Positions 32,619 through 51,676 of a stretch of DNA of 64,000 nt are shown piece by piece. Source of the stretch: a virus. The notes under the pieces are model-generated. The model was not told where the DNA came from. It was given only the letters and a program-made list of their open reading frames with translations, and ran no database searches. Where the stretch lies: the IMG/VR virus record IMGVR_UViG_3300000172_000001, positions 38,431 to 102,430 of that record. The stretch is one strand, 5' to 3'. Each line of letters begins with the position of its first letter. The stretch's first letter is position 1. The translations under genes were made by a program, and so were the position numbers.

Positions 32619-32870
32619 TTATTTATTGTTATATTTTTGGCGTTCGCTGTTAGCTAATGCCGAGTATCTACTGGCATAATCCATTGAAAGTTTTTCAGAT
32701 ACGAAACTAGCCATATTTAAATGTTGAGAAAAGGAAACCATCTCTTCTCCAGGAGTAAACCAGAAAACTCTAACTTCTAAGATACCGTCTGCATTTTTTC
32801 TAAGAGAAAGCTCTACTCTATCTGCCTTTGTAAGTTTAAGAATTTGTTGAAGAGGCTTTATGTCGTTCAT
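32619..32870 (-). CDS. Hypothetical protein
   Basis: 83 residues, a beta hairpin (ADRVELSLRKNADGILEVRVFWF) followed by helix. Start overlaps the TGA of the gene upstream. No motif recognised. Confidence 0.5.
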   Translation of the reverse strand: MNDIKPLQQILKLTKADRVELSLRKNADGILEVRVFWFTPGEEMVSFSQHLNMASFVSEKLSMDYASRYSALANSERQKYNNK

Positions 32871-33217
32871 AATTTTACATCTCTCAGGTTTTGTCGTAAG
32901 ATATCTCCTAAAACTACAACATAGTAAATAGTAGTATCCTCAAATAATATTTTAGTGTTTATCCACTTGCGAGTTACATAACTAGAGGCATCTTCTTTAT
33001 AAGTAGCATAAGATACCCCCATGTAGAACATCACCTCATCGAACTCTACCGGGATAGTGCCGGGTTCTAACTTCATAAGGACTTCTCCACATTTAGGGAG
33101 AAATTCTACCTTATATTCTAAGATTTCACCTTTTACTATTTTTCTTAATATTTCAGCATTAGTATAGATCATTAGGGTTTTGTTCATTCGTTTTACAAAA
33201 GTCATTGGGGTGCTCAT
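32867..33217 (-). CDS. Hypothetical protein
   Basis: 116 residues. Mixed alpha/beta with ILEYKVEFLPKCGEVLMKLE and several Tyr. TGA stop overlapping the next ATG; start overlaps the previous TGA. Part of a run of five ATGA-coupled genes (32.6-34.0 kb) where TGA must act as a stop. Confidence 0.5.
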   Translation of the reverse strand: MSTPMTFVKRMNKTLMIYTNAEILRKIVKGEILEYKVEFLPKCGEVLMKLEPGTIPVEFDEVMFYMGVSYATYKEDASSYVTRKWINTKILFEDTTIYYVVVLGDILRQNLRDVKL

Positions 33218-33462
33218 TCGGAACGGATCCCTCCCATTTTGAAAAAGTCTACATTACTTAACCCGGTAAATTTGAAAGAATCTCTGTCTTTTTTCGAGTA
33301 TTTATCGCAGACATAATGTTCCATTTCATCAACAAACTGGTTAAAATCCATTTTGTTGAAATAGTTTATAGTATCAATAGCTTCTTTTAATTCGTGAAAG
33401 TTATGTTTTATTTTTCTTATTGCACACCCGCCTTTAGTTGTGCGAACTATTTCAGTATTCAT
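33214..33462 (-). CDS. Hypothetical protein
   Basis: 82 residues, Lys/Asp/Phe-rich, with CDKYSKKDRDSFKFTGLSNV. Ends in TGA within ATGA. No family. Confidence 0.45.
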   Translation of the reverse strand: MNTEIVRTTKGGCAIRKIKHNFHELKEAIDTINYFNKMDFNQFVDEMEHYVCDKYSKKDRDSFKFTGLSNVDFFKMGGIRSE

Positions 33463-33760
33463 GAGTTCTCCCCTTTTGCTTATTATATGGTTCTTTCAAG
33501 TAAAAAAAATCACCTAATTCTGAACATTTTCCTTTTTCTGATTCGGTATAGCAGCATGTCCTATGATATTTATGTTTTTGATATTTCGTATGACACACAC
33601 ATTCACAGCTTTCCCATTTTTCTTTTGGTTCTGGTATCTTATCCACCAACCATACCACGAAAGGAGTTTCCCAATAAAAATTACCAGATTCTCCGGCTTC
33701 ATATTGAGCTCTTACATTTTCCTCTCTCAAATACTGTTCCATTAGTTTTGTTAATTTCAT
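33452..33760 (-). CDS. Cysteine-containing hypothetical protein
   Basis: 102 residues. WESCECVCHTKYQKHKYHRTCC then KGKC suggests a zinc-binding knuckle. The N-terminal part is helical. Overlaps both neighbours; TGA stop. Confidence 0.5.
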   Translation of the reverse strand: MKLTKLMEQYLREENVRAQYEAGESGNFYWETPFVVWLVDKIPEPKEKWESCECVCHTKYQKHKYHRTCCYTESEKGKCSELGDFFYLKEPYNKQKGRTHEY

Positions 33761-34017
33761 TCTTTCTCCTTCGGCTTAATAGACTCAGCAAGCCTCTTGC
33801 CTAGATCTGTAGCGCATCTAACTATGTCGTTAGCCATAATATCTAAATACTGTTGAGTATAATTCTCAGGAATATTAAAACAGAATGATTCGTCCTCTTC
33901 GTTAACAAAGGATATTGTACCTTCATATCTATCATGTCGTTTATGTTCTTTCTTTTCCCAACCATATCCTTGTTTAAACCTGATACTTATATTATCAAGT
34001 TTCCAATTATTTTCCAT
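33757..34017 (-). CDS. Hypothetical protein
   Basis: 86 residues, charged; ISIRFKQGYGWEKKEHKRHD then helical ENYTQQYLDIMANDIVRCATDL. ATGA overlap with the next gene. Confidence 0.45.
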   Translation of the reverse strand: MENNWKLDNISIRFKQGYGWEKKEHKRHDRYEGTISFVNEEDESFCFNIPENYTQQYLDIMANDIVRCATDLGKRLAESIKPKEKE

Positions 34018-34030
34018 TATTTCTCCTTAT

Positions 34031-34216
34031 TTAGGGTTTAATAGCAACATACAAATCTAAGGCTTTATATATTATTTCGCCTTCTTGTAAATTCGCCCTC
34101 ACCTTTTCTTCAATATTGCCCCACTCCATAAGATTTTTATAATTGTATCTTTTGTCATGAAAGAAATTAATACTTTTTAGCAAATCTTTTTCAATCTGTG
34201 TTAAATCATTTTTCAT
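34031..34216 (-). CDS. Hypothetical protein
   Basis: 61 residues, helical, Asn/Lys/Glu-rich. ATG adjoining the stop of the gene upstream. No motif. Confidence 0.4.
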   Translation of the reverse strand: MKNDLTQIEKDLLKSINFFHDKRYNYKNLMEWGNIEEKVRANLQEGEIIYKALDLYVAIKP

Positions 34217-34357
34217 TTAGTCTCCTCCAGTTTCTCTGGTATACTGTTCATATAGGCAATCTAATTCACCTGCTGAAAACTCACAATCTAACTGAGTTGT
34301 CGGTCCATAATGACTTAGATGCCCTTCTTCTATTAACCATTCTATGAAGTCTTCCAT
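34217..34357 (-). CDS. Hypothetical acidic protein
   Basis: 46 residues from MEDFIEWLIEEGHLSHYGPT (ATG at 34357 with AAGGGGACC upstream, better than an upstream TTG). Acidic and helical. Unknown. Confidence 0.4.
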   Translation of the reverse strand: MEDFIEWLIEEGHLSHYGPTTQLDCEFSAGELDCLYEQYTRETGGD

Positions 34358-34362
34358 TGTTG

Positions 34363-34602
34363 TTAGGTCCCCTTGATAAAATATGTTTCTTTGTGCCAAT
34401 ATGGGCTTTCTTTTACAACACTTCGATTTTTTTGTTTCTTAAAACATTTTTCACATACCCTGTGCTTTTTTGTAGCCATTCCAAAAGTCCAATAGATCCA
34501 GCTATGCCAGCAAAACCACTTTTTTCGTTGCTTAGTATGTAAAATTAGGTCGAGCTCTTCTCTAGTTAGTCTGTAACTTGTTGGGGTGAAATCAATTACC
34601 AT
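34363..34602 (-). CDS. Basic Cys/His-containing protein
   Basis: 79 residues. WFCWHSW and VCEKCFKKQKNR give a possible C-x-H / CxxC metal site; Lys-rich. ATG follows AAAGGAGCATAGT. Function unknown. Confidence 0.5.
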   Translation of the reverse strand: MVIDFTPTSYRLTREELDLILHTKQRKKWFCWHSWIYWTFGMATKKHRVCEKCFKKQKNRSVVKESPYWHKETYFIKGT

Positions 34603-34634
34603 ACTATGCTCCTTTATAATAGTTTTTCATCTGT

Positions 34635-34724
34635 TTATCCATTTTCTGTAGGGTCGTGTATAATTATTGAGTTTCCTTCACTCTTTGTTTCAACTACCAT
34701 TCCTACACTTAATTCTAATTTCAT
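34635..34724 (-). CDS. Small protein, 29 residues
   Basis: MKLELSVGMVVETKSEGNSI then IIHDPTENG, beginning after AAGGAGTGAAAAAGAA at a good distance. A short beta unit. It fills the gap between the Thg1 gene and the next gene in the same direction. Confidence 0.45.
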   Translation of the reverse strand: MKLELSVGMVVETKSEGNSIIIHDPTENG

Positions 34725-34738
34725 TTCTTTTTCACTCC

Positions 34739-35434
34739 TTAATTATTTTCTATTAAATATACATGTTTTTCAATGTAATCTTTACCCCTAGCTGAGGCAA
34801 ACACTGGGATATTCATATCTGGGTGGTTATTGTCTATACAGTACCCTTGTCGTCTTAAACTAGAGAAGTCATCAAAATTAATTCCTATCTTTTTGGATAG
34901 AAGATGTTTTATATTCTCAACACTTCTCATGTGAAGTTCTTTCTGAGAGAAATGCTCTCTTCCTACCATCTGGACAGCGTTGCGTATAGCATCTTGTTGT
35001 CTCCAGATATAATAGTTTGTCACTTCATCTTTTGCCAAATTAAAAGCTCTAGCATCAAACTGCACTTTTTCGCCAGTTATTGAATAAAAGTTAGTGCTTA
35101 CGATAGCTGCTGTAATTGATACTATTTTCTGTATGGAATTATTGAACCACGACTGTGTGTTATGAGTTTTATAATCCGTTAATAAAAAACTGATCTCATC
35201 AGATTGACCATAGCAAAACTTTGTTGACTGCATATCTTCCATAGAAGCCCTAGCAGTTTCCATCATATTTGCAGAGAATCCGGTAGACCATCCTCTTCCA
35301 TATAATTTTCTTGTAAGAGTGTGAAACGCTCTACCGTCTACTCTTATTATTACTGGCATTCTTTTGTGAAGCTTGTATTTATAGGTAGCTTCATAATCTT
35401 TCATACGATCACCTAGTGGGGTTCCGTCTCCCAT
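34739..35434 (-). CDS. Thg1-family tRNA(His) guanylyltransferase
   Basis: 231 residues from MGDGTPLGDRMKDYE (ATG with AGGAG nine bases upstream). RVDGRAFHTLTR at 31-42 and CYGQSDEISFLL near 74-85 are the two carboxylate motifs (Asp 33, Asp 79, Glu 80) of the reverse 3'-5' polymerase fold; NYYIWRQQDAIRNAVQM near 145 replaces the HINNLYN-type motif. Thg1 adds G-1 to tRNA-His; Thg1-like proteins repair tRNA 5' ends. The His-anticodon tRNA at 8847-8929 lacks an encoded G-1 and has C73, so it is a credible substrate. Confidence 0.88.
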   Translation of the reverse strand: MGDGTPLGDRMKDYEATYKYKLHKRMPVIIRVDGRAFHTLTRKLYGRGWSTGFSANMMETARASMEDMQSTKFCYGQSDEISFLLTDYKTHNTQSWFNNSIQKIVSITAAIVSTNFYSITGEKVQFDARAFNLAKDEVTNYYIWRQQDAIRNAVQMVGREHFSQKELHMRSVENIKHLLSKKIGINFDDFSSLRRQGYCIDNNHPDMNIPVFASARGKDYIEKHVYLIENN

Positions 35435-35435
35435 A

Positions 35436-35645
35436 TTATTTAGTCTCCTCTTTTTCATCTACGAACTTTACTTGAAAGTTTTTTCCTTCTACTTGTTTAG
35501 TGTGTTCATCACATACATAAAGGAAGCCTATTAAGTGGTTATCTTTATTACGATGCCCCACCATGTGGATGTCCTTTCTAGTTGAAGAGCATATACAACA
35601 ACATAGAATATAATCTTTTCCGCTGTTGTTTCCTACTTTACTCAT
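35436..35645 (-). CDS. Small zinc-binding protein
   Basis: 69 residues. YILCCCICSSTRKDIHMVGH then FLYVCDEH provides CCxC and CxxH pairs, a small treble-clef-like site. Coupled to the Thg1 gene. Function unknown. Confidence 0.5.
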   Translation of the reverse strand: MSKVGNNSGKDYILCCCICSSTRKDIHMVGHRNKDNHLIGFLYVCDEHTKQVEGKNFQVKFVDEKEETK

Positions 35646-35674
35646 TGTTTTTCATTGTTGTTTTCCTTTTTAGT

Positions 35675-35715
35675 TAAAAATAGAAAGAGGCGCACAGAAT
35701 TATCTGGCGCCCCTA
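35675..35715 (-). terminator. Intrinsic terminator
   Basis: GGCGC, CAGATAATTCTG, GCGCC hairpin then a T-rich tail on the minus strand, right after the gene at 35722-36345. Confidence 0.75.
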
Positions 35716-35721
35716 ATTATT

Positions 35722-36345
35722 CTATAGTAATCCTTGTCTTTCTGCGATTGCTATAAGTGTTTCATTTGGTACTTTACGATTTCCTATACTCAATCCTGTG
35801 TCTTCAAAGACTATTACGTCGCCGTCAAGGAATATTAATGGAGTTGTTTTAACATCTAACACTCTGGAACAGAAGCCAGCTCTAAACAAATGACCTCCCT
35901 CTAATCCCGATTGTAATAACACATCCATGGCGTTTATACCGCGGTAATAACGTGGACCCGACACCTCACATACCGTTGTAACAGTTTCTATATATTCGTC
36001 CATGTATCCATGCCAACTACGCCATTCTTTATCCGCATGAATACGTGCGAAATCGCCTTCTCTGAAAGCTACTCCATGAGGAGCTTCTGCTTTTATTCCA
36101 TTTTGATTAAATAATCCCTGTAGTCCTGAATCAAGTTGTACTCCATATATAGTAATATTTTGGTCCTGGGGATTAATTGCTGAATCCATAATTATTCCCA
36201 AGTCACCATTAGCTCCTACTGAGTGGTATTCCTGGTATTTATCGAGACCAAGTTTTCTCGCCATTTCTTCATAGCCACTATATTGTTGCCCAACGTGGGT
36301 TATAGACACTAAAGTATTTTTAGGGATTATATTATAGTCAATCAT
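35722..36345 (-). CDS. Paralogue family A member (GD-x-V / YP-x-W-x-L module)
   Basis: 207 residues. Shares with the four upstream genes the start of the module and a C-terminal NRKVPNETLIAIAERQGLL that is repeated in the next two genes (DNDTIKIVLERQGLL, SNDQLLTVAKKQGII). VAFREGDFARIHADKEWRSWHGYMDEYIETV matches the GD-x-V then W-x-x-x-M-x-x-x-I core. Ends in TAG. Function unknown; the family forms a tandem array beside the repeat-rich region. Confidence 0.55.
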   Translation of the reverse strand: MIDYNIIPKNTLVSITHVGQQYSGYEEMARKLGLDKYQEYHSVGANGDLGIIMDSAINPQDQNITIYGVQLDSGLQGLFNQNGIKAEAPHGVAFREGDFARIHADKEWRSWHGYMDEYIETVTTVCEVSGPRYYRGINAMDVLLQSGLEGGHLFRAGFCSRVLDVKTTPLIFLDGDVIVFEDTGLSIGNRKVPNETLIAIAERQGLL

Positions 36346-36753
36346 TTACAGTAAGCCTTGTCGTTCTAGTACAATTTTAATAGTATCATTATCGATACAT
36401 TGGCATCCTACCTGGATATCATCCTCACTAAAGACTACTTCATGTTCACCTATATACAAGGTTTCCTCTTCTATTTCTTCTGGCTCCACTCTCATAAGAA
36501 CGAAGAAAGGATATGAATTACCGTCTGATAACTCTATTCCTGTGTTAGAGTTTTTGCCTAGATTTGTTATTTTAAGGATATGCTCCTCTTCAACAGCCTC
36601 GGTCATCTCATGGATCCAGCTGTCTCCCCAACCCATTTCACCATCTTCAGCTGTTCTAACAACTTTAATAGATTCTCCTACTTCGAAGTCAGTGGCCTCG
36701 CTTAAAGTCATGTAGGCCATACTTAGTTTTGCGCTTGTTTCGCTATTGTTCAT
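36346..36753 (-). CDS. Paralogue family A member, single module
   Basis: 135 residues. SEATDFEVGESIKVVRTAED then MGWGDSWIHEMTEAV, HILKITNLG and YPFFVLMRVEP form one copy of the module, followed by the shared C-terminal QGLL segment. Beta-rich and acidic. Starts at ATG behind AGGAAACAA. Unknown function. Confidence 0.55.
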   Translation of the reverse strand: MNNSETSAKLSMAYMTLSEATDFEVGESIKVVRTAEDGEMGWGDSWIHEMTEAVEEEHILKITNLGKNSNTGIELSDGNSYPFFVLMRVEPEEIEEETLYIGEHEVVFSEDDIQVGCQCIDNDTIKIVLERQGLL

Positions 36754-36782
36754 TGTTTGTTTCCTTTATTTTAAAAGATTTA

Positions 36783-37421
36783 TTAGTTTCTGGCAATGAT
36801 GCCTTGTTTTTTGGCAACAGTTAATAATTGATCGTTGGATATAGTTAGGTTTCCAACCCTTACATACTCTTTGTGGAAGTGCATAATAGATCCATCAAAG
36901 ACTAGGGCTACGTCTTCCACAAACTCTAAAACAAACCAAGGTACCCAGTACGGGTTATCTCCCTCTAGGTCTTCAATTTCATAACTATTGTGATCTTTAT
37001 TAGTAATTCTATATAAATCGCCAACATCACAATCGTCTAATTCTTCAGGCCACTCCTCTGCCCATCCATATTCATCTTCTTCTGCAGTTCTGACTAATTT
37101 TACTAAATTGCCTGTTTTCAGCTCACACTTTGCGTGGTATTCCTCAAAAATTCCATATAATGAGTTAGTGTTTGTATCTGGTTCTAGTACAAACCATGGA
37201 TACCATCTAGTTCCGGCTGGTGTATCTAACATAATTCCCTGTCTAGGGTCTACAGCTGTTACTGTATAAATATGGTCCACTGTACTGTTCATGTCCGTTG
37301 TCCAAACACAGCCGTACCCCATTTCGCCAGTTTTAGCCGTTCTAATGACTCTTACTTTATCCCTGACTCTAATATTGCAGTTTTCAGTAAATCGTCTATA
37401 TAATTCTCGTTCGTTAGTCAT
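36783..37421 (-). CDS. Paralogue family A member, two modules
   Basis: 212 residues with two copies: VRDKVRVIRTAKTGEMGYGCVW with YPWFVLEPD, and LKTGNLVKLVRTAEEDEYGWAEEW with YWVPWFVLEFVED. The repeat period is about 95 residues. C-terminal LLTVAKKQGII as in its neighbours. It shows that the module duplicates within and between genes. Confidence 0.55.
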   Translation of the reverse strand: MTNERELYRRFTENCNIRVRDKVRVIRTAKTGEMGYGCVWTTDMNSTVDHIYTVTAVDPRQGIMLDTPAGTRWYPWFVLEPDTNTNSLYGIFEEYHAKCELKTGNLVKLVRTAEEDEYGWAEEWPEELDDCDVGDLYRITNKDHNSYEIEDLEGDNPYWVPWFVLEFVEDVALVFDGSIMHFHKEYVRVGNLTISNDQLLTVAKKQGIIARN

Positions 37422-37582
37422 TTGACTTTTCCTTATTTTTATTGTTTATAATAAATGTTGTTTATGTTTGATGTCATATATACTTATGGCTGTGTTTCGC
37501 GCTTCGGCGGTGGAAGATCCATAGGTAATACACATTTTTGGTTAGAGACGGTTCCTCGGTTCCTAGACCCAGACTCCGTCAG

Positions 37583-37623
37583 GTTGATAGCTTGATAGCT
37601 TGATAGCTTGATAGCTTGATAGC
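37583..37623. repeat. Tandem octamer repeat, about five copies
   Basis: The unit TTGATAGC runs head-to-tail from about 37583 to 37623 just beyond the stop of the gene at 37624. Upstream (37500-37580) are short inverted repeats around CGGTTCC. The whole 180-base spacer between 37440 and 37623 holds no gene. Confidence 0.85.
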
Positions 37624-38586
37624 TTAGTCAGAAAATAGTTTAGATTCGCCATAGTTGTTATACGTATTATCTATACTGTCATTATGGTCATAGTAGTCAT
37701 CAGCTGGCATTCCAACTGTTTTAATAAAAGCTTCAGATAGCTCAGCATGTGTAGGTATTTTAGGGTTTACTTCTAATGACCATAAGGGATATGACCACTT
37801 TACTAAACTTTCATCTGCAAATATACTACGTTTGTCGGTAATGTCGAGATTAGGTTTTAACCATACACGAGCATTATGTATATCTACGCGATCTACAATA
37901 GCAAATCTACCAATTGCTTCATCCATATTAGGAATCCAACAAGCTTTAGCTCCCAAATATTCATCTGGCACTTTAGTAACTATCTTTACTGAGTCACCAG
38001 CGTGTATATAAGACTCTAATAATATTGAGTAAGCTTCTTTTATAGAAAGGTCTTGAAGTACGGCGCCAAATACGCTATCTTCCTCTTTACGTACGTCTTC
38101 TGCAATTACTTCAGAAATTAACTTAGGAACTAATAAAGAAGTATAATTATTACTACTGCAGACGCTGGTAGTTTCTTCTAATTCTATCTTCTTTAAGCAC
38201 CATATAGGGAAATAGCATTTAACTGCTGCTAATATTGTTTCAGTTGTATGTGTAAATATGCCTCTTTCGGAATACCAAATTGGATCTTCGCATAAAGTTA
38301 CGCCATTCACGTAGGAACGTCTGTGCCCGAAAGGAGCGTTTGATAGTGTTTCAGGCGAGTCTATTATATGTATACCTTCAACTATAAATCTATGCCCTAT
38401 TGTTACATCCATTTCTGGTATCCAGTCCGTTGACCAGCCTAGCTTTTTACTAATGTCGCTAGTGTCTGAGGGGCTGTTGATTGTGTATGGATTTAGGACT
38501 TCTACTATATCTCCTGGCTTTAGATACGAACTTTGTAAAGTTTCATAAGCCTTTCTTAATATGATATTTTTGGGGGTGTTATTCAT
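37624..38586 (-). CDS. Paralogue family A member, two modules
   Basis: 320 residues. SSYLKPGDIVEVLNPYTI, LGWSTDWIPEMDVTIGHRF and YFPIWCLKKIE make copy one; SYIHAGDSVKIVTKV, ACWIPNMDEAIGRFAIV and YPLWSLEVN copy two. Low-complexity Asp/Asn/Tyr tail. ATG behind AAAGGAAACACAA. Function unknown; sequence suggests a small beta-barrel repeat. Confidence 0.55.
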   Translation of the reverse strand: MNNTPKNIILRKAYETLQSSYLKPGDIVEVLNPYTINSPSDTSDISKKLGWSTDWIPEMDVTIGHRFIVEGIHIIDSPETLSNAPFGHRRSYVNGVTLCEDPIWYSERGIFTHTTETILAAVKCYFPIWCLKKIELEETTSVCSSNNYTSLLVPKLISEVIAEDVRKEEDSVFGAVLQDLSIKEAYSILLESYIHAGDSVKIVTKVPDEYLGAKACWIPNMDEAIGRFAIVDRVDIHNARVWLKPNLDITDKRSIFADESLVKWSYPLWSLEVNPKIPTHAELSEAFIKTVGMPADDYYDHNDSIDNTYNNYGESKLFSD

Positions 38587-38667
38587 ATTTGTGTTTCCTT
38601 TAATATGTTAAGTTAGTGTGTTGAATTAATATTGTTTATTATTCTGAAAGTATAATTTACTATATGT

Positions 38668-39264
38668 TTAAGTAAAGAGAGAAGGGGTTACCTCATATCC
38701 TTGTGATGGCTTGTTTAATGGTCCATCTTCTGGATAAGTGCAAGATACATCAGCTGGCTTTGGAGGAGCCAAGGTGCCATCTTTGTCAACAACAAAATTT
38801 AAGTCTATATATTCAATTGATTGTCTCATTTGTATGCTTACATTTATAGAATCTATTTGTTCTATCATATTTTTATCTAATGTTGTACTTAGATTTCTAC
38901 GAATTTCATTACTTACAGCTTTGAGTACATCTGGGTTTTTTGGATACATTGGATGTGGAGGTACTATCTTTTGTAGACTCCATAGCGGGTATAGATAGTT
39001 ACTAGCGTAGTCAATTGCTTCGTACTCCTCAGTATCTACGGTATCTTTTAATATAATACTATATTTTGGATGCATCTTAAGAGATATACCGCTATATTCT
39101 AATTTGTTTACGATAAATACATGACCTATTGCTGGGTGCATATAGTATTCCCAGGAATATGGGTTCCCTGCAAAGTGGCGTGATGTTCGGTGAGTAACTA
39201 GTACTACATCACCGGTTTTTAAATAGGAGTTATATAATGAAGTATATTCGGACGTGTGTGTCAT
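38668..39264 (-). CDS. Paralogue family A member
   Basis: 198 residues from MTHTSEYTSLYNSYLKTGDV (ATG at 39264; the open frame upstream runs into the repeat region and is not coding-like). NSYLKTGDVVLVTHRT, WEYYMHPAIGHVFIV and YPLWSLQKIV show the module. First gene leftwards of the repeat-rich region, so it may be driven from there. Confidence 0.55.
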   Translation of the reverse strand: MTHTSEYTSLYNSYLKTGDVVLVTHRTSRHFAGNPYSWEYYMHPAIGHVFIVNKLEYSGISLKMHPKYSIILKDTVDTEEYEAIDYASNYLYPLWSLQKIVPPHPMYPKNPDVLKAVSNEIRRNLSTTLDKNMIEQIDSINVSIQMRQSIEYIDLNFVVDKDGTLAPPKPADVSCTYPEDGPLNKPSQGYEVTPSLFT

Positions 39265-39332
39265 TTTAGTGAGTTCCTGGTTAATTTTGATTGTAATTTT
39301 TGTAATAATTTGTGTGTTTTGGGACAATTTAT

Positions 39333-39442
39333 TGGTAAAAAGAGCGCAAAAGTGGTCAAAAGGTGGTTGAAAGTGGTAAGCAATTGGTCGAAAGTGGTAA
39401 CGAAAGTGCTCAAAGTGGTAAAGAAAAGTGTAGTTTTGGTAA
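39333..39442 (+). repeat. Left iteron array, TGGTAA class, six copies
   Basis: TGGTAA or TGGTCA at 39333, 39353, 39374, 39394, 39416 and 39437: steps of 20, 21, 20, 22 and 21 bases. Most copies read AAAGTGGTAA. All point the same way and face the right array. Confidence 0.75.
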
Positions 39443-39566
39443 GACCTATATGTTGTGTAATGGGTATATAGCTTGTGTACGATATAGTTCTGCACAACAT
39501 ATGGGTAACCTATATAGCTGCTTGCTCTATCTAAAATAGAAATACACTGGCTTTTTTTGATGGTTT

Positions 39567-39660
39567 TTTTACCACTTTTGATGTTTTGCTTACCAGTTTG
39601 GGGCGTTCGCTTACCACTTTAGGGGGGTTGGCTTACCAGTTTGGGGGTTTTGCTTACCAG
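39567..39660 (-). repeat. Right iteron array, TTACCA class, five copies
   Basis: TTACCA preceded mostly by GC at 39567, 39588, 39609, 39631 and 39652 (steps 21, 21, 22, 21). Several read GCTTACCAGTTTGGGG. It is the inverted counterpart of the left array, 125 bases away. Confidence 0.75.
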
Positions 39661-39724
39661 TGCCATTTTGGTCGAAATTGGGTGTAAGTATAGGTAAATA
39701 ATAAAGATAAGAGAAAAGTATAAA

Positions 39725-43012: not shown

Positions 43013-44060
43013 GGAAGATGAGAGTGGCTGAGGGGTAAACTCTTCTTCCGAGGGATGCAACTCCCTTTGCGAGACTTATTAATCCCCGCACCACCTACGT
43101 TAAGTAGGAAGCCCTATCTTAAATTCTTTTCCAAATTGAAGGCTCTAGCCTTGCAACTCCTTCGGATAGACACCCAACGTTTTTATTACGTCTTTGGCCC
43201 AGTTTTATGAAGTTTGTACTTTTCCTGAGAATACAGTTAGTACGGTATATCTTTAAAGGGATCATTTCAATTCCCCTCGTTTCCACGCAGACTTACGTCG
43301 TCGTAATACACCAATCACAGCTCCAGGTATGGAGCCAGGTCTTTCCACTTACATTAACTCTACAATTTCACGACTATCTTAGCTGCCGCCAAGCTTAACC
43401 GCTTCCTTATAAATACTGCTGCAACCCTTGCGAGGCGCAGAGCTCGACGTTATACAGGCCGATATTAGTGATCTTTTATTATAAGCAGCCAGGAATCTAA
43501 TTGCTTTCATTATAAATGACGAGAATCGAACTCGTGATCTACGGATTAATATTCCGTTGCTCTACCAACTGAGCTACATTATGGTTTTTCTGTGATTGGG
43601 AGGACGCGTTCCCGGTTGTGGTTACGTAGTTTTCAGCCACATAATGCCACTCGCCCTCGTAAGTCATTAGCCATGACAGCCTCCGATCCTTCATCATAGT
43701 AGTTGTCTCTTCTTGACTTAGAAGCCAATGAAGGCCTCAATATCTTGATCCCGACAAACTATATAATTGATAACCCGCTTGACAGACAGGATATCTTGCG
43801 ATTACTATACAGACATTTCTGCCTACCCCTCAGGGGATACGTATCTCGACCTTCACGCCTCGCAGTTAGCCTGGAGTGTTGGACTATTTTTTACAAGATA
43901 AATAGAAGTTCGCAGTGTATAAATGTTTGCACTCCCGAAGGAGAACAACGCAATGCCAGGTATAATTTCACAGACCCGACTGCTTTTAGTCCCATTGCTG
44001 GGGTTATCTTTAACTGGATGTCATACCACCCAGGTGCTAATTAAGGCTAAGCCTTGATTG
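43013..44060 (-). ncRNA. Large structured RNA candidate B with embedded tRNA-like domain
   Basis: About 1.05 kb without a credible gene. It starts just after a GGTATAAGAA promoter (44066), ends at a large terminator and contains a tRNA-like fold at 43511-43583. Many hairpins, e.g. AGGCTAAGCCT near 44045 and CTCCAGG/CCTGGAG near 43321. Within it, GTGAAATTG and GGAAAGACC occur 16 bases apart (43341-43374), both short matches to 23S rRNA domain V. The size and embedded tRNA fit the GOLLD class of phage RNAs; that assignment is a hypothesis. The plus strand shows one 113-codon frame here that I reject. Confidence 0.55.
43511..43583 (-). tRNA. tRNA-like domain with AUU anticodon inside RNA B
   Basis: D-stem GCTC/GAGC, anticodon stem ACGGA/TCCGT, loop ATATTAA, T-arm ACGAG, TTCGATT, CTCGT are canonical, but only four of seven acceptor pairs form. 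An A34 anticodon (AUU) is atypical for bacteria. Probably a structural domain of the large RNA rather than a free tRNA. Confidence 0.5.
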
Positions 44061-44065
44061 CGAAA

Positions 44066-44075
44066 TTCTTATACC
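44066..44075 (-). promoter_or_regulatory. GGTATAAGAA promoter motif for RNA B
   Basis: Minus-strand TGGTATAAGAA, immediately upstream of the candidate RNA. Confidence 0.55.
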
Positions 44076-44104
44076 AGAAAATATTGTTTTTTAAAAGACA
44101 TTGG

Positions 44105-44115
44105 GTTATATTCAA
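44105..44115 (+). promoter_or_regulatory. TTATATT-class motif
   Basis: GTTATATTCAA three bases before the ATG at 44118. If it is a promoter the transcript would be almost leaderless or start at a later ATG. Confidence 0.35.
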
Positions 44116-44117
44116 GT

Positions 44118-45617
44118 ATGGAAAGAAATTATGAAGTATTTAGAGCTAGGGTAGTTTCAGTAGAGAGTCCTGATGTAAACGCCCTAGATAAAAAAGACAT
44201 ATATATTCAGGCAATAGATGAGACAGATCCTGAGAAGACGTATTTGGCGTTACCTCCGATATTTATACCAACTTCTGCATTTGGGTCGGGAGTAGTATCA
44301 GTGCCTCCTGAAAATCAGGAGTGTTTGGTGGCCTTGGACAAATGAAATAATGTTGCACAGATTCTTACTTATATCCCCTCAGGACTATCTTCGGCCTTCG
44401 GCGGTTTATCTGCAGAAGCTGTACCAGAGGGGGGAGTGTTATTAAAAATAGGTGGAAAGAACAAAACTAACTTCCTAATGGCTCCAGATGGATTCTTTAG
44501 TTGGTTTTCTAACGCCTTCGCTGAAATAACTTTGGATGGAGCTTATAAGAAACTAAATATTACAACTAAACGATATGAAAGACGAAGCGCAACTAATTTT
44601 GTTAGAGACTCATATCATCCTAAGAAATCTGCAGGAATAGATAAAGGAGCTACATCACATTTAGAAGTATATTCAAAGTTTGATGATACTACTGGGTATC
44701 TTGACCATATCTCAGAAAACACTGAGACTCACCGCAGTATTCCTTTCAAGCACCAATTCACAGATCAAACTATTATAAAGTCTGGATACATACCTCATGT
44801 TAAGAATTTAAAAGGCACGCCTTATTCCCATTTGTATCAATTAGAGACTAGACAAGCTACTGGAGGTTCTAAACAGAAGAATACCTATACTAAGTTACAT
44901 CTAGGGTATCAAGGGGCTACAGATCTATTTGATATAGGAGAAGAACACCCGGCAGGTTCTTTATTTCATTGGGTATTTAAACGAGCAGTAACAAATAATA
45001 ATAGCTCAATGATAAATAGATTTGGGAAATTAGAGTCCGGGAGTTTAGCGGGAGAGTTATATAGACATCAAATATATGATGGAACTTTTGATGCTACAGC
45101 CTGGAAAGCTGGGCAAGGTTACGATTATACTTTTATCAACACCGGAATTAAACAGCAATATGTAAGTAGTTTTGGCAAGTTAAACACGGGTAGAATATGA
45201 GGAAGACACATCCATCAGCTAGAAACCACAACTAATGGTAAAATGTATACTAAAGAGTTTGGCGGTACAGATATATTAAAGACAACAGTGCAGTCCGGGG
45301 ATGTTGCAACTCCAGAGTTGAAATTGACAAAGACGTTAAATAATGAGGCATACACTGTTAAACTGAATCTAGGAGATACTACTCTTACTATAACTTTGGA
45401 TAGCAGCGGAATAACTCTTGACGTGCCTGAAGGTAAAAATGTGTATCTCGGAGGCTCAGAGGGTCAGACGTTAGTTACTAAAGAGTTTGTTACAGAATTA
45501 TACGCGGGACATACACATGGTACAGGAGTGGGACCTTCGTCACCTCCAATAATTCAGCCAAGTATTTATGATCCTTTGGATGAGAATATTTATACTGTGA
45601 AGACTTTATCAGAATAA
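44118..45617 (+). CDS. Baseplate spike/hub-type virion protein with two recoded TGA codons
   Basis: 499 codons in one frame with TGA at 44343-44345 and 45198-45200 read as Trp. The N-terminal SVESPDVNALDKKDIYIQAI then YLALPPIFIPTSAFGSGVVSVPPENQECLVAL is an OB-like domain; the C-terminus LYAGHTHGTGVGPSSPPIIQP is the H-T-H-x-GP-x-x-PP signature of baseplate assembly/spike proteins (gpV or gp45-like), preceded by beta-helical repeats. Three Trp also use TGG. ATG chosen for frame continuity. It overlaps the next gene at TAATG. Confidence 0.75.
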
Positions 45618-46159
45618 TGTTAAGTGAAACTAATTTAAAGACTGAGCTAATCGCGGAGTTTTATAAGTATTATTATTTAGAAGGCGATAACCGAATAGCT
45701 TATACAGTTGATGAAAAAAGCATCAGGTTAGGGGAGATTATTAGTGAATATATGAGCGAGGCTGTAGTAGGAGTTACTGGAATCACTACAAACTTTTCTA
45801 ATGTAGAAATAACTATACCCGAATGACCAGAGGTTGATGTATCTTTAACTTTTATATCTAACCCATTGGCGGAGATTTCAGGGTCTAGAGGTATATCTGA
45901 TGAAGATTTACTAGCGGAAGCTACTACATTAGTACCTACAGCAGTAGGATTTATAACTTATACTCCTGTAGGACCAATAATACCCTTTATAACACCCACA
46001 TGAGGTAGCAGCAATGCAGAGTTAATAGCCCAAACTGTGGAGATCTTTTGTGAAGACTTGGCAACTAGTATCCATAACTATGTAAAACAAATAAAGTTTC
46101 AAATGACAGGAACGTCGGCAAGTGGTGTAGTACTTACAGTAGTATGGACTATAACGTAG
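45617..46159 (+). CDS. Virion protein with two recoded TGA codons
   Basis: 180 residues reading TGA at 45824-45826 and 46001-46003 as Trp. Ends at TAG (46157-46159). LKTELIAEFYKYYYLEG then SEAVVGVTGITTN and a C-terminal beta region. It follows the spike gene with a one-base overlap, so a baseplate or tail component is likely, but no family is recognised. If TGA were a stop it would be 69 residues with orphan coding sequence downstream. Confidence 0.6.
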
Positions 46160-46187
46160 ATAATACTTGACTAAAAACCTAAGCTTA

Positions 46188-46198
46188 GTTATATTGAA
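46188..46198 (+). promoter_or_regulatory. TTATATT-class motif
   Basis: GTTATATTGAA, 42 bases before the large structural gene. A 12-codon frame (MLEETKLVINWR) lies between and ends at that gene's ribosome site. Confidence 0.4.
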
Positions 46199-46239
46199 AT
46201 GTTAGAAGAAACAAAGTTAGTGATTAATTGGAGATAATA

Positions 46240-48417
46240 ATGGACAACTTATTTATAAAGAACTCTTTTACTAAAACAGCGTCATACTCAGTGGATATGG
46301 ACGCAACGAAGTGGGTTAGAAATGTAATTACGTATTTTTACGAACAATATCCGTTCGCTCAAAATCAGCCTGCAGTGGTTCAGTGGAAGAAAAAAGATAG
46401 TACAAAGGGATATGCGGTAGGGGTATTAAAGATATCCGGGGCATCCATACCAGTAGTAATCAAAGATTGGAAATTATCTCCTTTAGACATAGTTATGGCA
46501 GGTGGAAGAACTTTACCACTTAATACTGAGGTGTTAAGAACTATGTTAACTTCGCCAGGAGCATTTGTAGGAGTAGCGTCGTCTCCTCCTAAATCAGGAC
46601 TGGACATGTTCTCACAATTACAGTATTCTCCTGATGGGAGTATAAACAATTCAGCTAGCGAGTCTAGTTCACAAGAACGACCTGCTAAAATAGCTTCATT
46701 TATTGACAAAATTGAGCATATAGACAAAAAAGCCGTTGTTGAAATACTAAATACTGTTAAAAACAACCCAGAAATCCATAATAACTTCAAAAAGACCGGA
46801 AGATTAGACGTTTTAGACAAACTAGCGTCAAAAACAGAGAGTCAAGAAGAAATCGTGGATTCTTTCATTAGGGACCTTGATATAGATAGACAGTTAGTTA
46901 TTAAAGACTCTTTAGGTAATCACACAGTTAAACAAGCTAATTCTAACATAGATTTTGTATGAGAACTCCCTATTAAGGCTTCAGAAGCTGAAGAATTTGA
47001 GATATTAACTGCTTCAAGTTTCCAAGAAAAGACTGCTGAGTCTGTAGATGCTAATTGCTACAAGATTTGGGACACTGATAGACACCTTATGGTAACATCG
47101 GACAAAGATTATCATGATTTTAGTAGAAATGATGTGAAAACGGCTGAAGCATTTACTTTAGAAGAAGACCAACCACAAGTTGGTGATCTTGGCGTTTGAA
47201 AATTTGGAGAATCAGTCTCTGAACCTTTTGAAGTACTAGGAATGGACAAAGTATCGTCATATTCTTCAAATCTTTATAAACTAGACGGAGGTCCAGGGTA
47301 TCTTAGCATCAGTAAGAATAAAGATTGGGTTATTTTAGAGAAATTAGGACAAAAGTCTTCAGAAAATGTAGAAATAGACGGAGATTTTCCTAAAATAGGA
47401 GATTTCGGAGCGTGAGTTATGCCTGATGGCAGTGCCACTAAGCCTTTTGAGATTAGAGAACTATTACAAGACTTAGAAGCTTCTAGCAATAAACAAGTAC
47501 AAGTAGCAGGTTGGGATGGATTGCAGAAGATTGCGTATTACCTGACTGAAATGCCTGTTAAGAGTCTGATGGACTCAGAGAATGGCGGAAAGTTACTACC
47601 TAAAGAAGCAAAGTTTGTTAAATTAGGCAAAGAATTAAGAAAAGTTTCTGAAGTTAGCGAGGATAATCAAGATACCCCATTAAAAGTTACAGGATGGGCC
47701 GGAAGAGAAAAAGTATCTTATTACATCGACAACACAACTACTTCTGAAGCAAAATATGTAGAAAAAGAATCTAGTTGGTATTTATCTAAGGACGTGAGCT
47801 TCATTAAGCTAGGATCATACTTACAAAATGAAATACCACATACTGTTAAAGTAAATAAACACACAGTTGGAAAAGACTCTGTAGGCCTTTATTACTTAAA
47901 AGGTGCAGAGTTCTCTAAATATGCAGAAAACAGCCATGAATTACGTGATTTAAGCCTCTCAGAGGCAGAATGATCATTAATTCATTGTGGAGCAACCAAG
48001 ACTGATATAAATAAGGCGGCAATGTTGCTGAAAGGCACTGAAATGCTAATTGCTTGTCCAATTGAAGCTCCTATACCTCCAAAAGTGTTTATTGATAAAA
48101 TAGCAGAAACTTATGAAGATAGTACTAATGACATAGAGATGTTAAAAGTAGACTTAGTAAAAGAGGCTGCGGTTTTATCTGATAAAAGCACTGTAGATGC
48201 TGTATTGTCTCTTGGAGCTATCAACAAACAGAATATTATAGAATACATAGCTCTATTACCTCAATATGAGATGATTATGAGTGAATTAGCCAAAATGCTG
48301 CTTATGACTAGGTTAGGTATGAGGCATCTTCCGGAGGAAGCCGTAAAGAACGCCATGGATTCAGTAACTAAAATAGTACTGTTGCTTATGGGCGTTAACA
48401 AACTGTACTCTAATTAG
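46240..48417 (+). CDS. Large virion structural protein with four recoded TGA codons
   Basis: 725 residues from ATG after TTGGAGATAATA, with in-frame TGA at 46960-46962, 47197-47199, 47413-47415 and 47971-47973. Two TGAs fall at the same place in an internal repeat: VGDLGV-TGA-KFGES...PFEVLGM and IGDFGA-TGA-VMPDG...PFEIREL, so the codon stands for a conserved residue, most simply Trp. TGG is also used (TKWVRN, KDWVIL). Ends in TAG followed at once by the next ribosome site. Probable tail/baseplate or internal virion protein; no family recognised. Confidence 0.7.
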
Positions 48418-48425
48418 GAGATACT

Positions 48426-48842
48426 ATGAGATCTTTAGGGGATATGGCGCGACAGATGACTTCATTGCAGAAATTAGTGGTTAGCCAGAATGATCAAGAA
48501 GGCGTAGACGAGGTTGTATATGAAAAGGCGTACGAGTCTACTGCAGGGGCAGATTCTATAGGGCGAAGTATTTATAACGAAGAAGATGGATCAGTAATGA
48601 TATTATCTTTGCCAGAAGGAACAGAGTTTCCACCACATACTCACGAAAATCCAATAGTAGAGTATGGAATCATATTAAAGGGGAGTATAAGAATTACACA
48701 AGAAGGAGTAGATGACGTAATCTATTCTTATCAAGACTGCGTAATTCTTAAAGATGAGGTTATGCATTCTGGAGTAGCTTTAGAAGATACGAAGATAATC
48801 GCAATAACAATCCCACAAGAGTTAGGATACCCTGGAGCTTAG
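48426..48842 (+). CDS. Cupin-domain protein
   Basis: 138 residues. SLPEGTEFPPHTHENPIVEYGIILKGSIRI and YQDCVILKDEVMHSGVALED are the two cupin motifs with metal-binding H-x-H-x(n)-E and H. Cupins bind small ligands or catalyse oxidations or isomerisations. Lying among virion genes it may be a structural cupin fold. No in-frame TGA. TAG stop. ATG preceded by TTAGGAGATACT. Confidence 0.7.
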   Translation: MRSLGDMARQMTSLQKLVVSQNDQEGVDEVVYEKAYESTAGADSIGRSIYNEEDGSVMILSLPEGTEFPPHTHENPIVEYGIILKGSIRITQEGVDDVIYSYQDCVILKDEVMHSGVALEDTKIIAITIPQELGYPGA

Positions 48843-48871
48843 TCTCCACATTATAAAATAGGAATATTAGA

Positions 48872-49339
48872 ATGACTGATAAAAAAGGACCAATGAGCTG
48901 AGAAGAGTTTTTCGTTAAAATCGGAGACAAAGTGGATGAGCATGAAAAGACGTTAGTGACTTTTACTAACGGTAAGTTTAAATCATTAGAAGATAATGTA
49001 GATACTTTAAAAGAGACAGTTGGGGGCATTAAGAATGATATGTCTGAGATTAAAAGAAGACTTCTAGATCCTGAAACCGGCGTAATTCACAAAATGAATG
49101 AAGCTACGGTATATGTAGGCAAATTACAGAAAGAAGAAACGTTAGACCAGATCAAATTAGTCAAAAAAGCTAATACGAACGTTTCACGGTTATTCTGGCT
49201 AGTTATGACATTTGTTATAGGCTCTTTCTTATCTCAGGTCATACCAGACACTTGGTATCCATATTCAGATAAATATACACCAAAAATAGAAAATGTTCAG
49301 CCTGAACCAGTGATAATACCTGATACTATCGCTAATTAA
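48872..49339 (+). CDS. Coiled-coil membrane protein with one recoded TGA
   Basis: 155 residues. MTDKKGPMS then TGA (48899-48901, Trp) then EEFFVKIGDKVDEHEK. A long coiled coil (VDTLKETVGGIKNDMSEIKRRL) leads to one TM helix (RLFWLVMTFVIGSFLSQVI) and a periplasmic tail with Pro and Glu. The layout resembles XhlA-type holin partners or spanin-like anchors. If TGA stopped, translation would end after nine codons, so this gene needs recoding from its start. Confidence 0.65.
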
Positions 49340-49363
49340 TATTTGTATAATACCTAGAATCTA

Positions 49364-49375
49364 ACTATATTAAAG
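49364..49375 (+). promoter_or_regulatory. TTATATT-class variant
   Basis: ACTATATTAAAG, 17 bases before the ATG at 49392 and resembling the site at 61927. Confidence 0.35.
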
Positions 49376-49391
49376 AAAGGGGGTAATTCCA

Positions 49392-49517
49392 ATGATAATA
49401 CACTGGGGTCTCTCTATAAAAGACAATTTGAAGAATAAAGTATTAAATCAGTATAAAAATAATGCACAATTCGCCTCTCTCGATTACAAAAGCAGCTGCA
49501 ATACAGTTAGAAACTAA
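49392..49517 (+). CDS. Small protein overlapping the IscA-like gene
   Basis: 41 residues from MIIHWGLSIKDNLKNKVLNQ with a strong GGGGG ribosome site. Overlaps the next gene in another frame by 56 bases, so it may serve for translational coupling. No family. Confidence 0.4.
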   Translation: MIIHWGLSIKDNLKNKVLNQYKNNAQFASLDYKSSCNTVRN

Positions 49518-49794
49518 GAAAATTAGCTTAAATCACCCAAAATCCCACATATTAAACATAAAGTTGGCGCCAAATTACGAAACTGAGATGGCACACTTCG
49601 ATTTTACATATAAAGACATAAAAGATATTAAAAATATAGTGTATGATGATGACTATGCACACACCATGGATTCGGAAACTGCTATGTATCTTCTTGGCAG
49701 TACATTAGATTATAAGGATAATAGACTTATATTCGATCATATGGAGCTAGATGGCTTAAATAACTTTAATAATATTGATAATAATAGCAATTAA
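49462..49794 (+). CDS. A-type iron-sulphur carrier-like (IscA/HesB) protein
   Basis: 110 residues. ISLNHPKSHILNIKLAPNYETEMAHFDFTY, then DSETAMYLLGSTLDYKDNRL matches the HesB/IscA fold (id-x-x-s-x-x-x-L-x-G-x-x-iDY). The three cluster-binding Cys of IscA are absent, as in several phage homologues, so it is unlikely to carry a standard Fe-S cluster. Starts at ATG; ends with Asn-rich tail. Function in the phage unknown. Confidence 0.55.
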   Translation: MHNSPLSITKAAAIQLETKKISLNHPKSHILNIKLAPNYETEMAHFDFTYKDIKDIKNIVYDDDYAHTMDSETAMYLLGSTLDYKDNRLIFDHMELDGLNNFNNIDNNSN

Positions 49795-49865
49795 TAGCTT
49801 TTTAAGGTAAAAAGAAGAGCTTTCACTCTCCTTTTGTGCAACTGACGTGTTACACAACGTAATTA

Positions 49866-50072
49866 CTAATCGATAGCAGATTCTTCCAAGGATGGAAGGT
49901 CTGTATTGCGATTATCATAGGCTCGTAATCCAAATGCCCCAGCTGCAACACTTAGGACTACTAATCCAGTGTTTTTCACTGCGGGTTTTGAGGCAACGGC
50001 TTTAATACCATTAACTGCTTTACGAAAATAACCTACTTCTGGGGTCTCAACGACCTTAAGTTCATCAGACAT
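49866..50072 (-). CDS. Small protein with one hydrophobic segment
   Basis: 68 residues: acidic start, basic KAVNGIKAVASKPAVKN, hydrophobic TGLVVLSVAAGAFGL. Stop TAG-TAA. Driven by a GGGTATAAGAA motif 80 bases upstream. Could be a membrane-associated or virion-internal peptide. Confidence 0.5.
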   Translation of the reverse strand: MSDELKVVETPEVGYFRKAVNGIKAVASKPAVKNTGLVVLSVAAGAFGLRAYDNRNTDLPSLEESAID

Positions 50073-50152
50073 GTTATGTCTCCTTTTACGTTATTTAGTT
50101 GTTTAATTAACGCCAGACATGGATTTTTCTCATTGTATCCTCTGGCGCATCA

Positions 50153-50163
50153 TTCTTATACCC
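50153..50163 (-). promoter_or_regulatory. GGGTATAAGAA promoter motif
   Basis: Exact copy, upstream of the gene at 49866-50072. The rest of 50164-50361 is AT-rich with no gene seen. Confidence 0.55.
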
Positions 50164-50361
50164 TATTTGGGGCCAAAATAGCCCATTTTTGACTAATATG
50201 AGCATCATACACTTAATTATTAACGTTTTAAACTCGATCTTGCGGATTAAGGTTCCATATCATGCCCCCTATCCAAATGCACAGAATAAAACTAAATTGA
50301 AGGGTTTAAAATTTTTCCTATATGAGATTTTTTATTTTAAAATTTTTTAATTTATTTTTTT

Positions 50362-50793
50362 TTATTTTAAAACTTTTTCCCCAGATTTCAACATTTTTTC
50401 CCGGTGCTTATGGCAGGCCCATACTTCTTTTAAGTCACTTCTCTTAAGAGTCACGGTATTTATAATATCCCAACCATAGCCCTGAATAGCTACTTCAAGC
50501 CTAATCCGTAAGATTTTAGGCCCATAGGTTCCATGTAGGCGCATACGGGTTAAAATTCCTTCGGGAGATAATGTATAGGTATCCGTGCCCCCAGGCCATG
50601 CTAAACCTATCTTAATTCTCCCAAAAGGTGAATATTTCAATTTATCAAGCACTTGTTTTAAAACTGAGTATTTATATATATGACAACCAACCCTTAATCC
50701 TTCATGATGCGGTACAATATTCCTATTAATAACCTCATGATCGAGCGCTCCTATGCGTTCCTTGACTTTCCAAGGCCATTTATCATTCATCAC
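50362..50793 (-). CDS. Paralogue family C member
   Basis: 143 residues. Core shared by five genes: LRVGCHIYKYSVLKQVLDKLKYSPFGRIKIGL, LRIRLEVAIQGYGW and TVTLKRSDLKEVWACH. The pattern is VGC, a helix, PFG, beta strands, then (F/L)KRSDLKE-x-W. Ends with Lys-rich tail. Function unknown. Confidence 0.6.
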   Translation of the reverse strand: MMNDKWPWKVKERIGALDHEVINRNIVPHHEGLRVGCHIYKYSVLKQVLDKLKYSPFGRIKIGLAWPGGTDTYTLSPEGILTRMRLHGTYGPKILRIRLEVAIQGYGWDIINTVTLKRSDLKEVWACHKHREKMLKSGEKVLK

Positions 50794-51191
50794 AACTTCT
50801 CCATAATAGCTACTATACTCCGGTTATAAGCCCACATGTCCTTTAAAACTTTCCTTTTAAAATAGACGGTGTTTACAGGCCACCAAGAACCTTGCCAGCT
50901 GATCCCTTCAACAGCGACCCTTACAATTTTAGGCCCAAACCGAACATTTAATCGAGCGTTATATAGAACATTTTCGGAAAAATCATAAAGTTTTAAATCA
51001 ACAACATCTTCTATAGCAAGCCTAAATTCCCCAAACGGTAAATATCTCATTGAGGAAACTATTTTATCCAAAATACTTATGCCGAAACATAGGCAACCTA
51101 CCTTTACAACCTCAGTATCTACGATAATACCTCTAGTAACCTGCATACTCTTTAACTGTTCATCTGCAGTCCATTTATATTCTTGCATCAT
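50790..51191 (-). CDS. Paralogue family C member
   Basis: 133 residues with VKVGCLCFGISILDKIVSSM, YLPFGEFRLAI, VRVAVEGISWQGSWWPVN and YFKRKVLKDMWAYN. TGA stop inside an ATGA overlap with its downstream neighbour; ATG also overlaps the upstream TGA. Confidence 0.6.
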   Translation of the reverse strand: MMQEYKWTADEQLKSMQVTRGIIVDTEVVKVGCLCFGISILDKIVSSMRYLPFGEFRLAIEDVVDLKLYDFSENVLYNARLNVRFGPKIVRVAVEGISWQGSWWPVNTVYFKRKVLKDMWAYNRSIVAIMEKL

Positions 51192-51676
51192 AAAATTGTC
51201 TCCTTATCTTTTTGTAAATCCTCTTTGATATTATTAGCGGTTAACGTATCAGCTTTTAGCTGAAGCTTTGCAGCTTCCCGCTCTCTAACCAATAACTCTC
51301 TCCATAACTCTCTAAGATCTGATTTTTTAAATACAAGATCCTGCAAAACTATGTCGTAGTTTATACCCCAGCCAGTAGTAACAATAATTTTTCTTATTCT
51401 TACCTTCCTAAGACCCCAACTCATTTTTAGAAGTGTGGCACTAACTCCAGGACTCGGGGTTTCACGGGTGCTAAGCCCAAAAATGCCACCACGATCGCGT
51501 ATATACAAATCACCTCGGCCAAATGGCCACATAACTTTTCTTAGGGCGAGTTCTAATACAGACTTGTGAAAATTATTACAGCCTATATTTACAAGCATAC
51601 CGTGTTTTTCAGACTCCCATAACCTTATACCTAGCTTATGGGGTAGGCGGCTATTATAGTATTCTGCGTGTCTCAT
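51188..51676 (-). CDS. Paralogue family C member
   Basis: 162 residues from MRHAEYYNSRLPHKLG (ATG inside the upstream ATGA). VNIGCNNFHKSVLELALRKV, WPFGRGDLYI, VRIRKIIVTTGWG and LVFKKSDLRELWREL, then a Lys/Glu/Asp-rich extension. TGA stop. Confidence 0.6.
   Translation of the reverse strand: MRHAEYYNSRLPHKLGIRLWESEKHGMLVNIGCNNFHKSVLELALRKVMWPFGRGDLYIRDRGGIFGLSTRETPSPGVSATLLKMSWGLRKVRIRKIIVTTGWGINYDIVLQDLVFKKSDLRELWRELLVREREAAKLQLKADTLTANNIKEDLQKDKETIL

Follow-up and report, generated by a model that had tools for sequence, protein, structure and literature searches.

TGA as stop and as tryptophan in two gene classes of one phage, with a two-arm UCA tRNA as the probable decoder

The stretch of DNA analysed here (the window, 64,000 nucleotides) corresponds to positions 38431-102430 of the 102,430-bp virus record IMGVR_UViG_3300000172_000001 (label G000) and raises the question of how a single codon, TGA, can end some genes of a phage and be read through in others. 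An earlier reading of the letters alone (the sequence-only reading) had described TGA as the stop of tightly coupled minus-strand genes and as a sense codon in the virion block, and had proposed time- or context-dependent decoding in which reading TGA as tryptophan (Trp) would extend, and perhaps shut off, the early genes. The answer that we consider likely is that the phage uses the standard code early and reads UGA as Trp late, by means of a late-expressed derivative of tRNA-Trp with two anticodon-like arms. A contig of 205,518 bp (G001) includes the whole record at 100% identity (positions 66599-169028), and several further contigs are exactly identical to it over long stretches, meaning that the sequence is no assembly accident. 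The phage encodes a contractile-tail-type gene set (sheath, baseplate, terminase and portal) and an RNA polymerase of the fused beta-beta' type. G001, G003, G004, G005 and the L-numbers are labels for the phage contigs compared, and "early" and "late" were assigned from gene function. The gene caller was home-made and the boundaries of the open reading frames (ORFs) are approximate; the homology columns used for comparison are independent of where TGA is taken as stop. These gene-level columns replaced a whole-genome tblastx comparison without gene calls, which had produced many antisense artefacts.

The use of TGA as sense in the virion block was borne out, as the ORFs at window positions 43923-49339 (+) stay open only when TGA is read. 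Ten in-frame TGAs are distributed across four ORFs:

43923-45617 (+): late virion-type gene, in-frame TGA at codons 45, 141 and 426
45617-46159 (+): late gene, two in-frame TGAs
46228-48417 (+): late gene, four in-frame TGAs, those at codons 245, 324 and 582 aligned with TGG Trp codons in G004
48872-49339 (+): late gene, one in-frame TGA

The true start of the first of these genes is probably near codon 65, hence its TGA at codon 45 would lie upstream of the start. In the RNA polymerase, four of the five TGAs (64, 166, 354 and 958) stand opposite a TGG conserved in nearly all relatives, with Arg in one relative at one of these sites, and the fifth is opposite Tyr in the alignment. When all G001 columns at which relatives have TGG were considered, the plus-strand genes carried 178 TGG and 89 TGA, vs 258 TGG and a single TGA in the minus-strand genes, a contrast far beyond chance. 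Serine and selenocysteine (Sec) as meanings of the codon are ruled out by the alignments to conserved Trp. Thus, TGA is Trp in the late genes.

The distribution among functions is equally marked. In-frame TGAs are present in the genes for terminase, baseplate, sheath, tail fibre and RNA polymerase and amount to zero in those for DNA polymerase, ribonucleotide reductase, primase, sigma factor and helicase. In a minus-strand sugar block outside the window (G001 20976-29600), each of the epimerase and glycosyltransferase genes contains 3-4 in-frame TGAs, and no in-frame TGA occurs in several late genes of the plus strand, e.g., portal, endolysin and actin-like, evidencing that the split follows gene class and not strand. 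One codon therefore has two meanings, in gene sets of different function. A TGA-rich tail-fibre region (record 1143-2481) shares 98.4% DNA identity with L015 2549-3887 despite the fact that the portal proteins of the two phages are only 53% identical, suggesting the recent exchange of a recoded gene.

With regard to TGA as a stop, all 11 terminations listed by the sequence-only reading were confirmed, on the minus strand; the stop lies at the first coordinate of each feature:

12239-12478 (-): small ORF, TGA end in ATGA overlap, readthrough extension of 32 codons
17678-18457 (-): PP2C-like phosphatase gene, TGA end in ATGA overlap with a weakly kinase-like gene (15990-17681)
23351-24424 (-): T4 Rnl1-like RNA ligase gene, TGA end
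32867-33217 (-): early-type gene, TGA end in ATGA overlap with 32619-32870, readthrough extension of 2-3 amino acids
33214-33462 (-): early-type gene, TGA end in ATGA overlap
33452-33760 (-): early-type gene, TGA end in 11-base overlap
33757-34017 (-): early-type gene, TGA end in ATGA overlap
50790-51191 (-): early-type gene, TGA end in ATGA overlap, readthrough extension of 12 codons
51188-51691 (-): early-type gene, TGA end in ATGA overlap, readthrough extension of 11 codons
51673-52059 (-): early-type gene, TGA end in 19-base overlap
54573-55175 (-): early-type gene, TGA end in 46-base overlap

Seven of these stops (12239, 17678, 32867, 33214, 33757, 50790 and 51188) belong to 4-base ATGA overlaps and the remaining four to overlaps of 11 to 46 bases; two further TGA stops, at 57026 and 62479, involve no overlap. 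In the whole record 16 minus-strand genes end with TGA, and none of the late plus-strand genes needs TGA as a stop. As to the genes themselves, the window pair 15990-18457, with a weak protein-kinase match followed by a PP2C phosphatase, is ATGA-coupled on the minus strand, and two RNA ligases of different type are located close together at 21622-24424 (-).

The fact that TGA terminates so many coupled early genes is what would be expected if late UGA reading served to extend these genes and shut them off. Since NTGA is the sole possible 4-base overlap, the presence of TGA at such junctions is a matter of arithmetic that needs no regulatory reason, and the ATGA overlaps are ordinary translational coupling. 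Beyond the early TGA stops of the window, the next in-frame TAA or TAG is reached within 1-13 codons (32 in one case), distances that match the same-frame downstream expectation and are neither closer nor further (median test, P = 0.45); by this same-frame distance test, no selection for backup stops after early-gene TGAs was found. Moreover, TGA accounts for about the same share of minus-strand stops in G001 (20/148) as in the standard-code relative G003 (7/54). The extension and shut-off of early genes is thus unsupported, and we regard it as very unlikely.

It could also be argued that TGA already means Trp in the host and that the phage follows this code, in line with the result that neither the release factor family (PF00472) nor the Tyr/Trp synthetase family (PF00579) was found in G001, G003, G004 and G005. 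However, a ratio of 258 TGG to one TGA at conserved minus-strand Trp columns is unexpected for an AT-rich phage of such a host, and TGA is a normal stop in the minus-strand genes, so that this explanation deserves little credence; the early genes provide indirect evidence for a host with the standard code. A survey of release factors and UCA tRNAs in the full genome, which the sequence-only reading had suggested, yielded no release factor and one UCA tRNA.

The gene of this tRNA is a class II gene of 97 nucleotides (nt) at record positions 4052-4148 (+), i.e., G001 70650-70746, where it is the sole UCA tRNA reported by ARAGORN (with the label tRNA-Sec). It lies outside the window, at -34378 to -34282 relative to it, and no UCA tRNA was detected by ARAGORN within the window. 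The gene has its place on the plus strand, within the late lysis cassette, the record's remaining tRNAs being encoded in a minus-strand array; it follows a gene for a small membrane protein (record 3408-3815, holin-like by eye), and 34 bases separate its end from the gene for the endolysin (record 4183-4755). Its portion from the variable arm to the 3' end (nt 46-97) matches phage tRNA-Trp genes (blastn, 83%, E 4e-5), as does the copy in L170; the UCA arm of that copy differs from the anticodon arm of the neighbouring tRNA-Trp by C34U alone.

These tRNAs share an unusual anatomy. Among 56 unique phage tRNAs obtained by a pattern scan of viral contigs in which TCCAA was demanded, the variable region of most members folds into a hairpin whose 7-nt loop includes UCCAA (a 7-nt second loop fits 40/56). 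In L157 and L170 this region reads CGGGU-CUCCAAA-ACCCG, that is, an anticodon arm of the tRNA-Trp(CCA) type. In a fixed register, 253 of 280 cells of the second stem are paired, vs 138 +/- 7 when partners are shuffled and 83-133 when the register is slid, and all four Watson-Crick types occur at several of its pairs, as expected for covariation. In 44/56 members UCCAA is separated from the T arm by 10 nt, the canonical value for an anticodon arm, and the UCA arm is likewise at canonical anticodon-arm spacing. Both arms are recovered in the RNAalifold consensus and, of six members folded individually, in L170, L158, L015, L146 and L072; they do not both appear in the lowest-energy fold of L157. 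At the acceptor end, G73 is present in 56/56, A1-U72 in 45/56 (the copy of the present phage has G1-U72), G2-C71 in 31/56 and G3-C70 in 46/56, the four features being bacterial Trp determinants (PMC9976931). The family resembles tRNA-Trp(CCA) and the opal-suppressor tRNA-Trp(UCA) in G73, the Trp-type acceptor pairs, the anticodon loop CUNCAAA and a similar 3' half; it differs in having one more complete anticodon-like arm, with a CCA loop, located between the UCA and T arms, and in its length, 90-97 nt vs about 73-76.

The UCCAA of the variable arm might also be coincidental, or inherited from a common ancestor with no second anticodon arm being involved, and three bacterial tRNA-Sec genes do carry it there, although they were found by a pattern demanding UCCAA. 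Three approaches were free of this selection: the homologue search by relatives, a loop-free scan and the blastn search with the tRNA of the present phage. The homologue search ignored the variable arm, and each of the seven tRNAs that it yielded carries UCCAA in the loop of that arm (7/7). Among the matches listed in the loop-free scan, UCCA occurs in the loop of 27 of the 28 cloverleaf UCA tRNAs with G73 and in none of the 17 selenocysteine-type tRNAs. Together with the strong stem covariation, the constant spacing to the T arm and the blastn match to tRNA-Trp, this makes coincidence highly improbable.

A genuine or slightly divergent tRNA-Sec was the formal annotation, ARAGORN assigning this label to 52/56 two-arm tRNAs and Rfam RF01852 giving the tRNA of the present phage 48.5 bits (gathering threshold 47). 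The likeness lies in the UCA anticodon and the long variable arm. Nevertheless, RF01852 is unspecific, since an ordinary tRNA-Ser of the same phage scores 50.3 bits; the acceptor and T stems stack as 7+5 base pairs, vs 8+5 in bacterial tRNA-Sec, with an A1-U72 or G1-U72 end; the UCCAA loop is conserved; the family is linked to the use of TGA for Trp, and Trp is the residue aligned with the TGA sites. Genuine tRNA-Sec also stood clearly apart among the matches listed in the loop-free scan. A tRNA-Sec can practically be set aside. In bacterial species genomes, the only candidates for a two-arm tRNA that passed the fold test were tRNA-Sec look-alikes.

The two-arm tRNA occurs together with recoding. 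Among relatives whose sequence extends far enough upstream of the portal gene to be scored, TGA is sense in 6/6 with the two-arm tRNA and in 0/12 without it (Fisher P 5e-5), and in the relatives with TGA sense the homologous tRNA lies at the same place, ~4 kb before the portal gene. A seventh carrier, L085, has TGA in several short genes and stands outside the 6/6 count. Absence of the tRNA was rechecked with a covariance model, in which two-arm tRNAs scored at least 56 bits and all others lower, the next being an ordinary tRNA-Trp(CCA) with 52 bits. The tRNA-less contig L099 has six TGAs in a portal ORF at the contig end. The gain in ORF coverage under translation table 4 had a median of 0.14 in contigs with the two-arm tRNA, compared to 0.01-0.02 in controls (rank test against AT-rich controls, P 3e-8 on rounded values). 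That these tRNAs have two arms, that this anatomy is conserved and that it accompanies recoding are computational observations, and the probable decoder is a new tRNA variant and perhaps even a class of its own.

Based on these features, it is very probable that the two-arm UCA tRNA is the UGA decoder. On the simplest view, a tRNA-Trp would have acquired a UGA-reading arm through the change C34U, with a CCA arm either retained or newly added. Next to the D arm, the arm with C34 changed to U would expose the anticodon UCA and read UGA on the ribosome, and the second arm, located in the variable region at the normal anticodon-arm spacing from the T arm, would keep the tRNA-Trp loop UCCAA. The host tryptophanyl-tRNA synthetase (TrpRS) would charge the molecule via its Trp-type acceptor (G73, G2-C71, G3-C70 and usually A1-U72), helped by the CCA arm, after which the ribosome would use the UCA arm of the charged molecule. 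Identity and decoding, normally residing in one anticodon, would in this way be split between two arms of the same molecule. Our inferences from anatomy and gene position concern the Trp charging, the function of the CCA arm and the timing, and the claims differ in strength: use of the CCA arm by TrpRS for charging is possible, at somewhat less than an even chance, and the complete two-headed model, in which the CCA arm is kept for TrpRS, the UCA arm serves the codon and a gene in a late operon ties the code switch to late transcription, is proposed a shade more tentatively.

Several points weigh against this mechanism. The set of 56 was itself selected for TCCAA. The tRNA of the present phage is a less regular member, with a second loop of 8 nt and the wobble pairs G1-U72 and U4-G69, and its lowest-energy fold lacks the second arm. 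Some loci with the two-arm tRNA show little TGA sense in the available stretch, which may be early-gene DNA. Gene position is the only basis for the late timing of the tRNA. Finally, the authors of a structure of the E. coli TrpRS-tRNA complex argue that telling C34 and U34 apart is not required of the enzyme (PMC12135181), hence the CCA arm may be unneeded for charging and may have another role.

This last point leads to an alternative in which the two-arm tRNA reads UGA as Trp and the CCA arm acts as a decoy for anticodon nucleases of the host, as an aid in folding or EF-Tu binding, or as a UGG reader in an alternative fold. Besides the possible tolerance of U34, the two phage RNA ligases, one of them T4 Rnl1-like and of the tRNA-repair family, fit pressure by an anticodon nuclease, and both arms, being at canonical anticodon-arm spacings, could be presented. 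On the other hand, the conserved part is the CCA triplet and its flank, which TrpRS reads, together with a conserved Trp-type acceptor, and a decoy would need no linkage to TGA recoding. We regard this alternative as possible, though less likely than not. As for the switch, the location of the tRNA gene in the late plus-strand block suggests that UGA would be a stop early and sense late. Of the decoding model contained in the sequence-only reading, the time- or context-dependent part agrees with the two gene classes, the UCA tRNA of the late cassette and the lack of any phage release factor among those searched for, and time-dependent decoding is plausible, the model being already published; the part concerning early-gene shut-off did not stand.

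Suppression of UGA by the phage's tRNA-Trp(CCA) was also considered and rejected, the G001 copy having a normal 5-bp anticodon stem. In the tRNA-Trp(CCA) of G004 (109296-109371, -), the last pair of the anticodon stem is A-C, leaving a stem of 4 bp; a 4-bp stem of this kind has been described for a UGA-reading tRNA-Trp (PMC13092985) and by analogy could add UGA reading in that phage. Other RNAs in the window are the following:

365-441 (-): CUA-anticodon (amber) tRNA, by ARAGORN
13523-13595 (-): tRNA labelled tRNA-??? by ARAGORN, with an apparently enlarged anticodon loop, a candidate four-base decoder or a divergent tRNA
43222-43659 (-): GOLLD RNA (RF02032, 124.8 bits, E 4e-34, below the curated threshold of 150 bits)

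No use of TAG as sense was found in G001, where a single TAG stands opposite a sense residue in 141 alignments. CUA tRNAs are also encoded in G004 and G005, and the same unexplained pairing of a CUA tRNA without TAG sense was reported for phage Lera (PMC12386605). The GOLLD-like RNA lies in the gap immediately preceding the late block of the plus strand and embeds a tRNA at 43511-43582 that had been a candidate UCA tRNA, its anticodon being actually AUU. A phage transfer-messenger RNA (tmRNA) with the tag GRPAVKLAA is present in the record (30299-30670, -) and in L002 (11297-11670), and the tmRNA of G004 has a different tag. L170 contains a tmRNA, more than 20 tRNAs and an OLE RNA (RF01071, 109 bits) at 5822-6158 (+).

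The recoding itself follows a known phage strategy. TGA as Trp in late phage genes, with UCA tRNAs, has been published for crAss-like phages (Yutin 2021, PMC7886860) and phage Lera (PMC12386605), and PMC10746230 cites Borges 2022 for the same late-recoded, early-standard split. As in these alternatively coded phages (crAss-like and the Zeta crAss-like Lera), TGA is Trp mainly in structural or late genes and a stop elsewhere, and a UCA tRNA is encoded; Lera has an unused CUA tRNA as well. The present phage differs in that its UCA tRNA is two-armed, has a long variable region and is located in the lysis cassette, and in that no RF1 or TrpRS was found in it, these being present in some of those phages and not required. 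It has a fused beta-beta' RNA polymerase, and the likeness to crAss-like phages described here concerns the coding pattern. With regard to the tRNA, two anticodon arms, one of them for a stop codon, were proposed for one class II tRNA, the chloroplast tRNA-Ser(GCU), for which the accessible part of that article describes no cognate-arm copy, family or recoding link (PMC10228390). Beyond this remark, no description of a two-anticodon-arm tRNA family was found in a literature search that left preprints and most subscription papers outside its scope.

Recoded phages in which no suppressor is recognised are a stated puzzle (PMC7886860, PMC11210395), for which extremely divergent suppressors were suggested by Yutin et al.; among 73 phages for which table 4 was predicted, a set that includes many Mycoplasma and Spiroplasma phages, a UCA suppressor was called in only 11 (PMC11210395). 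A divergent tRNA family that ARAGORN labels as tRNA-Sec may explain part of this gap. The position of the decoder in the lysis cassette makes the late-switch model testable and, if the two arms do divide charging and decoding, the family would represent a tRNA architecture for which we found no description, with a bearing on how suppressor tRNAs can work.

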